DNA of 64,000 bases from Deltaproteobacteria bacterium HGW-Deltaproteobacteria-18 (GTDB taxonomy: Bacteria > Desulfobacterota > Desulfovibrionia > Desulfovibrionales > Desulfomicrobiaceae). Location: contig PHBE01000001.1 in the NCBI GenBank assembly GCA_002841885.1, forward strand, positions 1-64,000, given 5' to 3'. Position numbers and translations under genes: made by a program. A model generated the notes under the pieces. It did no database searches. It had not been told where the DNA came from and saw nothing but the letters and a program-made list of their open reading frames with translations. Positions 49,798-55,776 of this stretch are shown piece after piece (the stretch's first letter is position 1; every line of letters begins with the position of its first letter).

Positions 49798-49849
49798 AAG
49801 ATTGCCATGAAGCATCGACAGCGACACGATTTTGACATGGAGACGTTAC

Positions 49850-50749
49850 ATGAGCCTTCTTGATCCCATCCAACTGATGACCCTCATGGGAACCAAACCC
49901 GAGCGCAGAAGCCACAAGGCGGCGCTGGAGAACGGGTTTCAAAGCCACATGCGTCAGGCCCTGGGAACCAAAGACATAAACGCCCTGAGCGCGAATCTTG
50001 GCGGCTCTTCCATGGAAAACTCCCTCATGCGGGATGCCCTGCACGGCCTGGCTTCCATCATGAAACAGCAGTCCTCCAACGGCGCAGGGACAGCACGAAG
50101 CTCCCAAAAGCAGAATCCGACAGGCTCCCTGTCCGCGACCTTCGAATCCGGCACAGAGGGCGTAAACGCCATCGGCCATGACAAAAACGGCGGCACTTCA
50201 TACGGCACCTATCAGATCGCGTCCAAGCCCGGCACCATGAAGGATTTCATCGAGTTTCTGCGCGAAAAGGAGCCCGGATGGGCCGCCAAACTTAAAGCTG
50301 CCGGTCCCGCAGACACGGGCTCGACCCAGGGACGCATGCCGGAAGTCTGGCGTGAAATCGCGGCCGAAGACCCGGATAAATTCGGCGGACTGCAACGAGA
50401 CTTCATCGAGGGCACCCATTACGCCCCCGCTCGTGACAAGATTTTGGCACGAACCGGCGTGGACATGGACACGATGCCGCCCGCAGCCCGCGAAGCGCTG
50501 TGGAGCACGGCGGTTCAGCATGGAGCAGGCGGAGCGGCCAGAATCTTCGGCCGGGCCATAAAAGCCATCGGCACAGACCAGTCCGAACAGCAGTTCGCGG
50601 AAAAACTCATCGACAAAGTCTACGACAACCGCAAGTCACAGTTCGGCTCCTCCACGGCCAGCGTGCAGGCCAGCGTGAAAAATCGCATGAACGTGGAAAA
50701 GGAAATGGTCCTGGCCATGCTTAATAGCGACAGCCAGTCCGTGGCCTAG
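49850..50749 (+). CDS. Lysozyme-like protein with helical N-terminus, sigma-54 controlled
   Basis: 299 residues from ATG 49850 (GGAGA eight bases before); the TTG at 49832 is less likely. Residues 1-100 are polar and helical (KAALENGFQSHMRQAL), followed by a Ser/Gln-rich linker. From ~residue 105 a lysozyme-like domain opens with FESGTEGVNAIGHDKNGGTS and YGTYQIASKPGTM, the E-S-G ... S-Y-G-x-Y-Q pattern found in phage and secretion-system muramidases. There is no signal peptide, so export would use a dedicated apparatus such as the flagellar rod or a phage/T6-like system (inference; the N-terminus faintly recalls FlgJ's rod-binding part). The stop lies one base from the convergent GNAT stop. 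Confidence 0.68.
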   Translation: MSLLDPIQLMTLMGTKPERRSHKAALENGFQSHMRQALGTKDINALSANLGGSSMENSLMRDALHGLASIMKQQSSNGAGTARSSQKQNPTGSLSATFESGTEGVNAIGHDKNGGTSYGTYQIASKPGTMKDFIEFLREKEPGWAAKLKAAGPADTGSTQGRMPEVWREIAAEDPDKFGGLQRDFIEGTHYAPARDKILARTGVDMDTMPPAAREALWSTAVQHGAGGAARIFGRAIKAIGTDQSEQQFAEKLIDKVYDNRKSQFGSSTASVQASVKNRMNVEKEMVLAMLNSDSQSVA

Positions 50750-50750
50750 T

Positions 50751-51254
50751 TCAACCCTGCGCCAACAGTCCGACATATTTTGTGAAATAGAGAATATCCT
50801 CGCCCGGCGCGTAGTAATCGCGAATGCGAGCCTCATTGCTGAAACCGCAGGAAAGGTAAAAACGTTGCGTCGGCGCATACTGTTCCCGGGACGAAGTCTC
50901 GGCGATGAGCTTGCCTCCTTTGCCCCTGCGCAACCGTTCCTCCACTTCCGCCAGCAGCTTTCTGCCCAGCCCCTGGCCGCGCATAACTTCATGCACCGCG
51001 ATCCAGTAGAGATCGTAGGTGTTCGCGGTGCACGGCGTGGGACCGTAGCATGCATAGCCCATGGTCCCGCGCCCCGGTATGTCGGCAAATACGAAAAAAT
51101 AGCCGCTCTCTTCTCCCTTGGACAGGCGCTCGGTCACCAACTCCTCGGCCACATCCACTTCCGAAGCTGAAAAAAATGCCGTGGAGGTCACGATTTCGCG
51201 CACGGCATGAGGATCGCCAGAGTGCACCTGATCGCGAAAGGTAATTTCATCCAC
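50751..51254 (-). CDS. GNAT-family N-acetyltransferase of the KamA operon
   Basis: 167 residues from GTG 51254 (GGAGAGAG before it), overlapping the end of the ATP-grasp gene by 8 bases. GNAT core: DLYWIAVHEVMRGQGLGRKL carries the acetyl-CoA loop (R-G-Q-G-L-G), and FYLSCGFSNEARIRDYY is the C-terminal strand/helix. In the known AblA/AblB pair, lysine 2,3-aminomutase works with an acetyltransferase to make N-epsilon-acetyl-beta-lysine. This gene is the last of an operon that begins with such an aminomutase, so acetylation of a beta-lysine product is a reasonable guess. Confidence 0.8.
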   Translation of the reverse strand: MDEITFRDQVHSGDPHAVREIVTSTAFFSASEVDVAEELVTERLSKGEESGYFFVFADIPGRGTMGYACYGPTPCTANTYDLYWIAVHEVMRGQGLGRKLLAEVEERLRRGKGGKLIAETSSREQYAPTQRFYLSCGFSNEARIRDYYAPGEDILYFTKYVGLLAQG

Positions 51255-52269
51255 GATCGACTCTCTCCTGCTGCTCCGCCCGCTCCAGGGCATCAAGGAC
51301 TATGCACCGGACCAGCGCGGCATGATCCAGACCGGCCTGCCCGGCCGCGGCCACGAAGCCCGCGTCCGGGGTGATGCACGGATTCGGATTGACATCGATG
51401 ATGTAAACTTGGCCGCCATCACTGACGCGAAAGTCTATGCGGGCGTATCCGGCCAGATTGAAAAGTTCCCAACAGGAGATGCCGACCCGCGTCATCTCCA
51501 TGGCCAGGGGGTCATCCCCGGCAAGGTTGAAGCTGCGCGCCGATGCGGCATAATCCGCGCTGCTCTGCTCCCATTTGGCCGCATAATGCAGTATGGCCGG
51601 GCCGGATATCGCGGCATTGAAGACCATCTCCGCCAGGGGCAGCGCGCGGACCTTTGATCCCGGCTCTGCCAGCAGAGCCAGATTGAATTCCCGGCCAGGA
51701 ACGTATCCTTCGGCCACGCAGTCCCCGCCCATGCGCGGCGCGATTTTTTTCATCACCGCCAGCAACTCTTCGCGAGCCTGCACCTCAACGACGCAATCCG
51801 GGCCAAGGCCCAGGGAGGCATCCTCGAAACGCGCCTTGACGATATAGGTGCCGGGACCGGGAAAAACACCCCGCTGCAATTCCCCGAGCGTCGCACCGCA
51901 AGGCACGGGCAGCCCGGCCGCTTGCATAATCCGCCTGGCCAGGGCCTTGTCGCCCGCCAGGGTCATCCCGCCCTCGTCCGCTCCGGTGTAGACAAGCCCG
52001 CCCTTGCGAAAAAGAGCAGGAGCAAGACATGCAAGACTGGACAATCCATGACAGGACTCAACCAGATTGAAGACGACATCGGGTCTGCGGTGCGCAAGAG
52101 CGGCCTCGAGCGCAGAGGGATCGGATCCCAGGATATGCTCCGAGGTGCGCCAGCCGCAACGGGCCAGGCTCTCGCGCACGCTGCGGGCCTGCACCACCGT
52201 GTCCAGAGCATCGGGGGAAGCGGCTTCCGGAACGCTCTCGCGCACCACTGCCACATGCAGGGGCGTCAC
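51247..52269 (-). CDS. ATP-grasp ligase, divergent D-Ala-D-Ala-ligase-like (second of two)
   Basis: 340 residues. ATP-grasp fold: N-terminal Rossmann-like lobe with VVFNLVESCHG, central GTYIVKARFEDASLGLGPDC, and C-terminal metal site IIDVNPNPCITPDAGF. Compared with true D-Ala-D-Ala ligases, the Gly/Ser-rich loop KP-x3-GSS-x-G is replaced by KARFEDASLG, and the end motif is NPNPCITPD, so another substrate is expected. Its ATG overlaps the first ligase's stop by 4 bases (52266-52269). Co-translated with aminomutase and acetyltransferase; probably forms an amide bond in their product. Confidence 0.85.
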   Translation of the reverse strand: MTPLHVAVVRESVPEAASPDALDTVVQARSVRESLARCGWRTSEHILGSDPSALEAALAHRRPDVVFNLVESCHGLSSLACLAPALFRKGGLVYTGADEGGMTLAGDKALARRIMQAAGLPVPCGATLGELQRGVFPGPGTYIVKARFEDASLGLGPDCVVEVQAREELLAVMKKIAPRMGGDCVAEGYVPGREFNLALLAEPGSKVRALPLAEMVFNAAISGPAILHYAAKWEQSSADYAASARSFNLAGDDPLAMEMTRVGISCWELFNLAGYARIDFRVSDGGQVYIIDVNPNPCITPDAGFVAAAGQAGLDHAALVRCIVLDALERAEQQERVDRG

Positions 52270-53264
52270 GAACGTTTCCCCTGAACCCTGCTTTCGGCTC
52301 TGCGGATGGCAGAATCCATGATGCTGCTTATGAGTTCGTCATAGCCAAGGCCTATCTTGCCGCAGAGAATGGGCAGATCCGAACTCTCCGGATTGAGCCC
52401 CGCCAGCGGATTGACCTCGATGAACCGCGCCTCGCCCCGCTCGTCCAGACGCACATCGATGCGCCCGGCGTCGAGGCATCCAAGGGCCCGCCAGGCAGCG
52501 CGGGCCACCTCGGCGGCCTGCTCCGCAGGGCCGTCGGTGGCCAGTTCGTAGAGCGCCCGCTCGCGCCACTCCTGCTTGTTGGCGTAGGTGTAGGCGCACG
52601 CATCGCCGCTGGCGGTGGAGAGCACCTCCATGACCCCGAGCACCCTGCACTCCCGGCCGCTCCCCAGAAGACCCACGGTGAATTCCCGACCCGGAAGAAA
52701 CGTCTCCACCAAGGCGGGCTGGCGATACGTGCCAAGGACATGGGCGCAAATCTCGCGCAACGCCTCCCGGTCCCTGACCAGCGACTTGTCGCTCACGCCC
52801 TTGCTGGATCCTTCGGCCACAGGTTTGACAAAGAGCGGAAAAGGCAGGTCGATGGCGCCCACGTCGTCCATGGAGTTCACGATCCCGAAATCGGCCGTGG
52901 GCACGCCGTGCGCCCGCAGCACCGCGTTGGTCCAGCCCTTGTGCAGGGCCAGGGCCAGCACGTCGGGGCCGGAGAAGGTGTAGGGAATGTCCCACGCATC
53001 CAGCAGGGCCGGGACCTGAGCTTCGCGAGCAAGGCCGAGCATGCCCTCGGCGAAATTGAAGACCATGTCCCAACGCCGCCCTTCCGCCAGGGCGCGCGTC
53101 AGCGGATTCACGCCGCCGATCAGTTCCACGTCGTGTCCCTGGGACAAAAGCGCACTTCTGATGGCCTCTACAGTGACAGGACTGTCCAACTCCGCCACCT
53201 CATCCCTGCCGTATCCAGCGGCCAGGTAGTCCTGCTGCAGGTCGTAGGTCATGCCAACGAGCAT
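52266..53264 (-). CDS. ATP-grasp ligase, D-Ala-D-Ala-ligase-like (first of two)
   Basis: 332 residues from ATG 53264, which has AGGAGG before it and lies 16 bases inside the kamA-like gene. Canonical ATP-grasp elements: FNFAEGMLGLAREAQVPALL, FPLFVKPVAEGSSKGVSDKS (ATP/substrate loop), GRIDVRLDERGEARFIEVNP, then LAGLNPESSDLP. It keeps the ddl loop, unlike the second ligase. It is distant from cell-wall ddl by context (no mur genes) and is inferred to join an amino-acid-like substrate, perhaps beta-lysine. Confidence 0.85.
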   Translation of the reverse strand: MLVGMTYDLQQDYLAAGYGRDEVAELDSPVTVEAIRSALLSQGHDVELIGGVNPLTRALAEGRRWDMVFNFAEGMLGLAREAQVPALLDAWDIPYTFSGPDVLALALHKGWTNAVLRAHGVPTADFGIVNSMDDVGAIDLPFPLFVKPVAEGSSKGVSDKSLVRDREALREICAHVLGTYRQPALVETFLPGREFTVGLLGSGRECRVLGVMEVLSTASGDACAYTYANKQEWRERALYELATDGPAEQAAEVARAAWRALGCLDAGRIDVRLDERGEARFIEVNPLAGLNPESSDLPILCGKIGLGYDELISSIMDSAIRRAESRVQGKRS

Positions 53265-54484
53265 GGCGCCTCCTGCGGGCAAAGCTGGTCGGGGTAATGG
53301 AAAACACGGTTTTCATAATTGCGCAGCACGATACCCTGCTCGTCCCGGCCCTGAAAATAATCCGGTTGCAGCGGCACCTTGCCTCCGCCGCCGGGAGCAT
53401 CGATGACATAGGTCGGGATGCAGTAGCCCGAGGTATGCCCTCGCAGATCCCGGATGATGGACAATCCCGTCTCCACCGGAGTCCGGAAATGGCTTGATCC
53501 GGGAATCGGGTCGCACTGGTACATGTAGTAGGGGCGGACGCGATTGCGGATCAGCCCGTGCATGAGCCGCTTCATGGTCGGCGCGTCGTCATTCACACCG
53601 GACAGCAGCACGGTCTGGCTCCCCAGGGGAATACCGCCGTCGGCCAGACGGTTGCAGGCCAGGGCTGTGTCCGGGGTCATCTCGTCGGGATGCGTGAAAT
53701 GCAGGCTGATGAACAGCGGATGGTAGCGGCGAAGCATGCGCACCAGCTTGGGCGTGATGCGCTGAGGCAGCACGGCCGGCACCTTGGACCCGATGCGCAC
53801 GATCTCGACATGGGGGATGGCGCGCAACTGGGACAGCAGCCACTCGATCTTCATGGCCGGAAGAGTCAGGGGATCACCGCCGGAAAGAAGTACGTCGCGC
53901 ACCTCGGGATGCGCGCGGATATAGTCCAGGGCGGCCTGCCAGCTGCGCATGTCCGATCGGTGTCCGACCTTGCCCACCAGGCGTGAGCGCGTGCAGTAGC
54001 GGCAATAGGTCGAGCAGAACTCCGTGACCAGGAACAGCACCCTGTCCGGGTAGCGATGGACAATGCCGGGAACGGGACTGTGGCCCTCTTCGCCCAGCGG
54101 ATCCGGTGTCTCGAAAGGCAGGCTCAGCGTTTCGCGCACATCGGGCAGGATGCAGCGCCGCAGGGCCTCGCTGCGGGATGCGACCCATAGATAATAGGGA
54201 GTTGCGGCCACGGGCAACTGGCGCCTGGTCTTTTCGAAGGCCGGCACGGGGACGCCAAGAATCCGCGCCATGGCCTCCACGGAGGTGACACGGTGCTTCA
54301 GCTGCCAGCGCCAGCTGTCCCAGTCCTTTTGCACGGCACCGGGAAAATGCGTGCTCATGAATTTTTTGCGATGTGCCCAGAGGCCAAGCTCCAGGTCTTC
54401 GGGATGGGGAGATAAAGAGGGGGGTTCGGCCAGCTCCTGATCGATTTCGGAAGGCTCTGCCGCGACAATTTCGACAACGTCCAT
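53249..54484 (-). CDS. Lysine 2,3-aminomutase family radical SAM enzyme (KamA-like)
   Basis: 411 residues from ATG 54484 (GAGGA five bases before). Radical-SAM cluster ligands in EFCSTYCRYCTRSRLVG (C-x3-C-x2-C), GGDPLTLP for SAM, FTHPDEMTPDTALACNRLAD, and the C-terminal QCDPIPGSSHFRTPVETGL and YVIDAPGGGGKVPL. The Asp residues of the latter two motifs match those that bind the lysine amino group in the clostridial enzyme, so lysine 2,3-aminomutase activity (giving beta-lysine) is likely. Length suits a stand-alone aminomutase, not the shorter EpmB that acts with EF-P; no efp or epmA is adjacent. First gene of a four-gene overlapped operon. Confidence 0.87.
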   Translation of the reverse strand: MDVVEIVAAEPSEIDQELAEPPSLSPHPEDLELGLWAHRKKFMSTHFPGAVQKDWDSWRWQLKHRVTSVEAMARILGVPVPAFEKTRRQLPVAATPYYLWVASRSEALRRCILPDVRETLSLPFETPDPLGEEGHSPVPGIVHRYPDRVLFLVTEFCSTYCRYCTRSRLVGKVGHRSDMRSWQAALDYIRAHPEVRDVLLSGGDPLTLPAMKIEWLLSQLRAIPHVEIVRIGSKVPAVLPQRITPKLVRMLRRYHPLFISLHFTHPDEMTPDTALACNRLADGGIPLGSQTVLLSGVNDDAPTMKRLMHGLIRNRVRPYYMYQCDPIPGSSHFRTPVETGLSIIRDLRGHTSGYCIPTYVIDAPGGGGKVPLQPDYFQGRDEQGIVLRNYENRVFHYPDQLCPQEAPCSLA

Positions 54485-54549
54485 GGTTTCCTCTGTGCAC
54501 GTTAAATTATTCAAAAGATGAAAACGCGCCAACATTTAGCAATATATTG

Positions 54550-54570
54550 AAATCAGTATATAAAATCAGT
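54550..54570. repeat. Short direct repeats in the KamA operon upstream region
   Basis: AAATCAGT occurs at 54550-54557 and 54563-54570, 13 bases apart, in an A+T-rich stretch 66-86 bases before the aminomutase start. They could be a regulator site near the promoter (TATATAC and similar elements are present on the minus strand). The 317 bases 54485-54801 show no supported gene. Confidence 0.3.
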
Positions 54571-54801
54571 GTTAATCCTTCATGCGCACCTGCCCTTTGG
54601 CAGCTATAAAAACGCATGTTCCCTGATGCGTCGGCTCATATGCCTTTCCCATTTTCTTGTCATCAGGGTTATGCCCATAGCAGCACAAATTTTTTGATAT
54701 TTCCTGAAATATTTTGCGAAAGTCCGCCAGGGGCATGAAGGATGGAAAAAGTCTTGCGGTTCAAGCTGTTTGAAACCGAAAGATACAGGAATGAAGAGTC
54801 C

Positions 54802-55776
54802 CTATTCGGGCTTTGAGATCACGATGCGCTTGTAGGTTTCGAGCAGCTCCACGAAGGCGTCATGGTCCCCGCCCTTGTCCGGATGCATGGACATGGCTTT
54901 CTTGCGGAAGATGCGCGCGAACTCGCGGCGGCTCAGACGCCTGATCTCGTCCATGCCCATGCCGAAGAGTTCCCGCACCCGTACCGGGGCGACAGCCCGT
55001 GGGCGGGGACGGGGACGTCGAAAATCGTTCATGAAATCGCGAAAGATCCGCTCGAAACCCGCTGATCCCGCGAAATCGAAATCAAAATGGAAACAGGCAT
55101 AACGCCGCAGATACGCCTGCGCATTTGTGTCCAGGCCGAAGGCAAAGGCCGCATCGTTCCCGAGGGCACAGAATTCATGCATGAAGGCTTCGTCATGATC
55201 GGCCGGATCCAAGGCTTCGGGTATGGTCCGGGCCGCCGGAGAGGTGAAATGGCGTTGCAGATTGAACACCGCATGCACGTAGCCGCGCAACTCCTGCATG
55301 GGCAGGGAGCGCTCCAGTCTCAGGAAGAGCTGCTCGATTTCGTCCCGGCTCTTGTTCATGAGGCTCAAAAACAGTTTGGGGCTGACTTCGTCGATGCGGC
55401 TCAAATTGAGCTCGCCCGAACGCATGAAAGCCATGCGCCTGCGATCAAAGGGGTGCAGGGCGCGGATGGCGTCCTCCTGCGTGCGGGTCAGCACTGTTCG
55501 CGTCCATTTCCCGGCCCGCCCGGCCCGGTCCCGAAAGCCCTGCGGGGCAAAAGGAGCGAAGGCTTCGTCGAGCTCGTCCATGTCCGGGTCCAGACGTGCC
55601 AGCTCCTCAAGAAGCTCCTCGGCATAAGAGATCCCGAAACGACCGAACCGGACCATTCTGCCCGGGTCCTCCCCCAGGTCTGCAAGCGTCTCGAAACCGA
55701 ATCCGCCGTCCATCGGCACGGAACGCCTGAGTTCGAAGCGTACCGGCCTGCCGTCTGCAAGCACTGCCACGTACAT
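54802..55776 (-). CDS. Protein with C-terminal J domain
   Basis: 324 residues. The last ~70 form a DnaJ-type J domain: helix II (SRREFARIFRKKAMS), then MHPDKGGDHDAF with the HPD motif needed to stimulate Hsp70. It is an unusual C-terminal J domain, and the 250 residues before it have no motif I recognise; they are rich in Arg, Asp and Phe. Probably recruits DnaK to a specific client. Starts one base after the pyrC stop, so co-translated with pyrC. Confidence 0.78.
   Translation of the reverse strand: MYVAVLADGRPVRFELRRSVPMDGGFGFETLADLGEDPGRMVRFGRFGISYAEELLEELARLDPDMDELDEAFAPFAPQGFRDRAGRAGKWTRTVLTRTQEDAIRALHPFDRRRMAFMRSGELNLSRIDEVSPKLFLSLMNKSRDEIEQLFLRLERSLPMQELRGYVHAVFNLQRHFTSPAARTIPEALDPADHDEAFMHEFCALGNDAAFAFGLDTNAQAYLRRYACFHFDFDFAGSAGFERIFRDFMNDFRRPRPRPRAVAPVRVRELFGMGMDEIRRLSRREFARIFRKKAMSMHPDKGGDHDAFVELLETYKRIVISKPE

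Follow-up and report, generated by a model that had tools for sequence, protein, structure and literature searches.

The locus described here lies closest to two systems that yield acetylated solutes. In the Ngg system for N-acetylglutaminylglutamine amide (NAGGN), a GNAT domain and an ATP-grasp domain are fused in one architecture. In the N-acetyl-beta-lysine pathway, the lysine 2,3-aminomutase AblA is paired with the acetyltransferase AblB, and ablA riboswitches for Na+ or c-di-AMP have been described (PMC9337991). The present unit brings together a KamA-type aminomutase, two ATP-grasp ligases (G1 and G2) and a GNAT protein: the enzyme classes are known, the combination appears to be new, and the predicted beta-lysine operon that it represents is widely conserved and apparently undescribed. 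Among the 5.39 million papers searched we found none naming both '3-aminomutase' and 'ATP-grasp', and no description of such an operon; an earlier mention in a 2009 survey of amidoligase gene neighbourhoods, reportedly by Iyer et al., is possible.

The four genes of the unit

The window (the whole stretch of 64,000 nucleotides that was analysed) comes from a Desulfomicrobium-like genome of 4.0 Mb, and its ORF list contains the unit on the minus strand, from 54484 to 50751 (Table 1). The initial annotation had described four minus-strand genes overlapping by 16, 4 and 8 bases; these overlaps were confirmed with the starts given in Table 1, their sizes hinging on start choice, as there is an alternative upstream ATG at 54535 for KamA and there are TTG alternatives for G1 and GNAT. 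The families it had named agree with the calls by Pfam and NCBIfam, which give radical SAM and LAM_C for KamA, Dala_Dala_lig_C for both ligases and GNAT for the fourth protein. Reading the ORF list of 48-58 kb by eye likewise showed neither efp/epmA nor an NRPS or mur gene near the unit.

Table 1. Features of the unit in the window (coordinates are positions in the window).
Feature	Coordinates	Strand	Domain matches
KamA-type radical SAM enzyme, predicted lysine 2,3-aminomutase, 411 aa, first unit gene	53249..54484	-	PF04055, LAM_C
G1, Ddl-fold ATP-grasp ligase 1, 332 aa from ATG 53264	52266..53264	-	PF07478 E 4e-26
G2, Ddl-fold ATP-grasp ligase 2, 340 aa, GTG start 52269	51247..52269	-	PF07478 E 3e-14
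GNAT-fold N-acetyltransferase, 167 aa from GTG 51254	50751..51254	-	PF00583/PF13508
Stretch upstream of KamA, presumed promoter-bearing	54485..54801	-	

Upstream of the unit (54802-55776, minus strand) is a 324-aa protein with a C-terminal HPDKGG motif like that of a J domain and with no Pfam match, and downstream (49832-50749, plus strand) a gene for a protein with a VgrG3-like C-terminal domain (PF21277) meets the GNAT gene tail to tail, in the same position as in locus L004. Neither Rfam families nor sigma-70-like sites were found in the presumed promoter stretch of Table 1; sigma-70-like promoters and terminators occurred at chance level only. Riboswitch control (Na+ or c-di-AMP) was considered and rejected, since neither the window nor any of 15 related loci gave a riboswitch match.

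The closest solved relative of the window KamA is the lysine 2,3-aminomutase 2a5h (E 3e-118). The window protein keeps the CxxxCxxC motif and the equivalents of R134, D293, D330 and K337 (2a5h numbering), and these four residues are present in every cluster KamA aligned. We take Asp293, Asp330 and Arg134 to be the residues that hold lysine in the 2a5h enzyme, and Lys337 to be the PLP lysine; loss of the Asp293/Asp330 pair marks glutamate 2,3-aminomutase. The protein scores below the cut-off of the AblA equivalog TIGR03820 (445 bits vs 525), of the glutamate 2,3-aminomutase model TIGR04368 (403 bits vs 650, with the Asp pair kept), of the arginine aminomutase model, and of the EpmB model for EF-P beta-lysylation, TIGR03821 (217 bits vs 369); this last score disfavours modification of EF-P lysine by KamA, which the initial annotation had raised as the contrary case. 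On sequence grounds, conversion of L-lysine to beta-lysine by the window KamA is strongly predicted. A second lineage of cluster KamA, from Planctomycetota and a few Desulfobacterota, is nearer to AblA. The larger trees favour two lineages and one smaller tree is compatible with a single origin; KamA may have joined the ligases once or twice.

The genome of the window has further KamA-like genes. One of them, on a different contig (L102:6659-13999, contig C8), encodes a radical SAM protein in which Asp293 is changed to Met and Asp330 to Gly, and after it come a thioesterase and an NRPS that contains condensation and AMP-binding domains; this is a separate biosynthetic cluster, which probably uses another beta-amino acid. 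Another (L101:6907-7911, contig C18) also has no lysine Asp pair and is below all equivalog cut-offs, its best score being 319 bits to TIGR04368.

AlphaFold2 models of G1 and G2 have pLDDT values of 90 and 94, and the best PDB matches of both are Ddl enzymes. The ATP-grasp residues are conserved in both ligases; their scores (139 and 82 bits, respectively, vs 243) are below all the listed D-Ala-D-Ala ligase cut-offs, and at the position aligned with Ddl Tyr216, G1 has Gln while G2 has an invariant Trp. The residues K108, K145, E187, K232-W233, R277, D279 and N294 of G2 are invariant in an alignment of 26 rows and nearly so in one of 49. In the tree G1 and G2 are split with a support of 100, and the split holds in every lineage, which argues that the pair is old: as judged from their sequences, they are two separate ancient subfamilies. 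A further Ddl-like gene (93 bits) is found on contig C20 of the same genome. Variants were also observed elsewhere, as a 676-aa protein that contains two Ddl-type ligase stretches in one chain, with a methyltransferase gene following it (L150:6269-8296), and as a G1-G2 pair that has no linked KamA and adjoins an M20 peptidase and a transporter-like gene (L145:5344-9134), in a genome with a lysine-aminomutase-like KamA elsewhere.

The closest solved relative of the window GNAT is 2r7h (E 3e-41), a 'putative D-alanine N-acetyltransferase'. The protein gave no match to AblB (TIGR03827), and its score against RimI (TIGR01575) was 42.6 bits, below the cut-off of 86.

Conservation and co-occurrence

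The four-gene order was sought in other genomes, as the initial annotation had proposed, and all four families were present in 37 of the 47 loci examined outside the window; together with the gene order, this supports its reading of the four genes as an operon and shows the unit to be conserved between phyla. Most of the closer loci have G1, G2 and GNAT after KamA, in the order KamA-G1-G2-GNAT. The median gaps are 12 bp for KamA-G1, -1 bp for G1-G2 and 10 bp for G2-GNAT; G1-G2 is the tightest, and also the most constant, part of the unit. In 9 of the 47 loci G2 is fused to GNAT as one protein, and no fusion of GNAT to KamA was seen among the loci examined. The number of complete loci, the tight spacing and the G2-GNAT fusions, taken together, indicate that the linkage is not due to chance.

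A search with only KamA as query drew loci from Bacteroidota, Ignavibacteriota, Acidobacteriota/Aminicenantes, Neomarinimicrobiota, Spirochaetota, Deferribacterota, Planctomycetota and Alphaproteobacteria. The four-gene set occurs in about 8-10 phyla, a count that follows the record titles and is approximate, as near-identical loci (L013 and L015, L009 and L030) are named differently. Departures from the common layout were also recognized. In two cases the operon is split up and all the genes persist: in L179 KamA-G1 faces GNAT-G2 convergently, and one Bacteroidota genome has KamA, G1 and G2-GNAT on three separate contigs. In others the set itself is incomplete: four rumen alphaproteobacterial genomes have the cluster KamA without G1, and genome G016 has KamA-G1 without any G2 found and without a recognised GNAT beside them. 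In a minority of loci (L013, L015, L017, L019, L073, L133, L134, L170) an HDAC-domain protein (PF00850), some 580 aa long, lies inside or beside the operon. In one case, inside the ligase operon of L013 (11151-12887), this protein has a detectable N-terminal GNAT domain, while in L151 (8291-10540) the HDAC is fused to the GNAT of the operon in a chain of 750 aa; a version of 753 aa is present in L164. The catalytic residues of the HDAC domain, whose roles we presume from those in the family, are invariant in nine aligned copies.

Within the Desulfobacterota, 297 genomes were searched with thresholds of E <= 1e-20 for a G2-like ligase and E <= 1e-90 for a KamA homologue. The ligase was found in 106 genomes, the KamA homologue in 145, and both in 98. 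Thus, a KamA homologue accompanies 98 of the 106 ligase-bearing genomes (92%) vs 47 of the 191 others (25%), with a Fisher p of 4e-32 that is uncorrected for shared ancestry; the remaining 8 ligase-bearing genomes have no KamA at this threshold. KamA lies no more than 5 kb from 46 of the 52 best G2 matches.

A sister arrangement was recognized in 12 Desulfobacterota loci (L147, L152-L161, L163), from several families of the phylum, in which G1-G2 has no linked KamA. An agmatinase (SpeB) and/or a pyruvoyl arginine decarboxylase (PvlArgDC) adjoins the ligase pair in 11 of them, the twelfth (L155) running off its contig; a methyltransferase is present in all 12 and a GNAT in some. All 13 genomes searched that have a ligase pair associated with PvlArgDC/SpeB contain one unlinked KamA, which keeps the Asp pair. 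These KamAs form the group that is sister to the main lineage of cluster KamA (support 99), so that KamA belongs with the ligases even when it is not linked to them. Replacement of KamA by arginine decarboxylase/agmatinase as the amine supplier was ruled out by the same 13 genomes. Putrescine or agmatine may be an extra building block in the lineages with this arrangement.

Candidate product and alternatives

We consider it reasonably probable that the unit is a dedicated operon for an N-acetylated conjugate of beta-lysine. KamA would produce beta-lysine by shifting the amino group of L-lysine; the two Ddl-fold ligases, acting one after the other, would then each form an amide bond at the expense of ATP, a carboxylate being activated as an acyl phosphate that an amine attacks, and would place beta-lysine in a short peptide or amine conjugate; finally, GNAT would acetylate an amine left free on the product or on an intermediate. 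In the lineages with the GNAT-HDAC protein the acetyl group could probably be removed again, in a recycling or protecting-group role. By analogy with N-acetyl-beta-lysine and NAGGN, the product would most likely be a cytoplasmic, neutral or zwitterionic small molecule. It could be a larger acetylated solute, and since both of the nearest working analogies are acetylated solutes, an accumulated neutral solute would be its likeliest role, although neither riboswitches nor promoter-like sites turned up in its support. The fuller reading, that a novel metabolite class, an acetylated beta-lysine peptide or diamine conjugate, is made by a two-ligase, NRPS-free pathway, independent of the known N-acetyl-beta-lysine route and present in about a third of the Desulfobacterota genomes sampled and in several other phyla, has in our estimate an even chance of being right.

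The initial annotation is supported in part: the lysine-binding residues are kept in KamA, and the plain N-acetyl-beta-lysine route has two genes of its own elsewhere in this genome. The di- or tripeptide, or the peptidoglycan or carrier modification, that it proposed is conjectural.

The amine partner could instead be a polyamine: the ligases would then couple putrescine or agmatine to beta-lysine or to some other acid. Acetylpolyamine deacetylases belong to the HDAC family, and this reading draws on the intact catalytic residues of the HDAC copies and on the sister arrangement, in which about a dozen Desulfobacterota loci combine SpeB and/or PvlArgDC with G1-G2, a methyltransferase and, in some, a GNAT. 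However, neither the window unit nor the KamA-linked operons showed a polyamine gene, the link is confined to a few family groups (f21, f44, f59), and we regard a beta-lysine-polyamine conjugate as unlikely.

It is somewhat less likely still that KamA and GNAT of the unit simply give plain N-acetyl-beta-lysine, in spite of the presence of both an aminomutase and an acetyltransferase in the unit, and of the L022 unit, which adjoins a gene of the AblA lineage and a second GNAT gene. Contig C14, apart from the unit, encodes a true AblA (739 bits) together with the sole AblB of the window genome (338 bits). AblB is absent from four Desulfomicrobiaceae genomes (G003, G010, G013, G016) in which the cluster KamA and G1 are present, and from 22 of the 22 other ligase-bearing genomes tested outside the family, which argues that the unit is independent of AblB. 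The points against plain N-acetyl-beta-lysine are that eight Desulfomicrobium genomes keep both the AblA/AblB pair and the unit, that GNAT does not match AblB, that the tightest and most constant linkage is between the ligases, with GNAT fused to the second of them and not seen fused to KamA, and that KamA accompanies the ligase pair even in genomes where they are unlinked.

A cell-wall or carrier-bound beta-lysine structure (a modification of peptidoglycan or lipid), as the D-Ala-D-Ala ligase fold of both ligases might invite, appears very improbable: both score far under the Ddl cut-offs, another Ddl-like gene (that on contig C20) is at hand in the genome, and neither mur, carrier or glycosyltransferase genes nor transporter genes were seen as recurrent neighbours of the KamA-linked unit. 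Least credible of all is that the target of KamA is a protein (EF-P), glutamate or arginine, with neighbours present by coincidence: in its favour, KamA also scores against TIGR04368 and TIGR03821, but these scores are below every cut-off, the lysine Asp pair is kept in all the proteins checked, and the linkage extends across phyla.

If the unit does make an N-acetylated beta-lysine conjugate, many sulfate reducers and their relatives would produce an undescribed beta-amino-acid metabolite, the annotations of D-Ala-D-Ala ligase and 'D-alanine acetyltransferase' would be wrong, and genomes with a lone KamA would be misread as producers of N-acetyl-beta-lysine; a pathway would also be opened that is testable by expression of the four genes and mass spectrometry.

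Comparison with known systems

Both the unit and the AblA-AblB pathway have a GNAT protein and a radical SAM enzyme of the lysine 2,3-aminomutase kind, the lysine-binding residues being alike in the two. The unit differs from that pathway in its two ATP-grasp ligases, in a GNAT that is not AblB, and in a KamA that forms a separate lineage under the AblA cut-off. With the Ddl enzymes G1 and G2 have in common the fold and the ATP-grasp catalytic residues, while the scores and the Tyr216 position differ. The GNAT belongs to the same family as 2r7h, for which 'D-alanine N-acetyltransferase' is the name given by the depositor and for which we found no published function. As predicted for the unit, acetyl transfer is joined in the NAGGN system to peptide bond formation by ATP-grasp enzymes, with domain fusions. 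The NCBIfam Ngg model, however, gave no match in G2, in GNAT or in the G2-GNAT fusion of L135, and none among the matches listed for G1; moreover, the ligases of the unit are of the Ddl type and two in number, the domain order is ATP-grasp then GNAT, and the place of the asparagine-synthase-like partner is taken by a lysine aminomutase.
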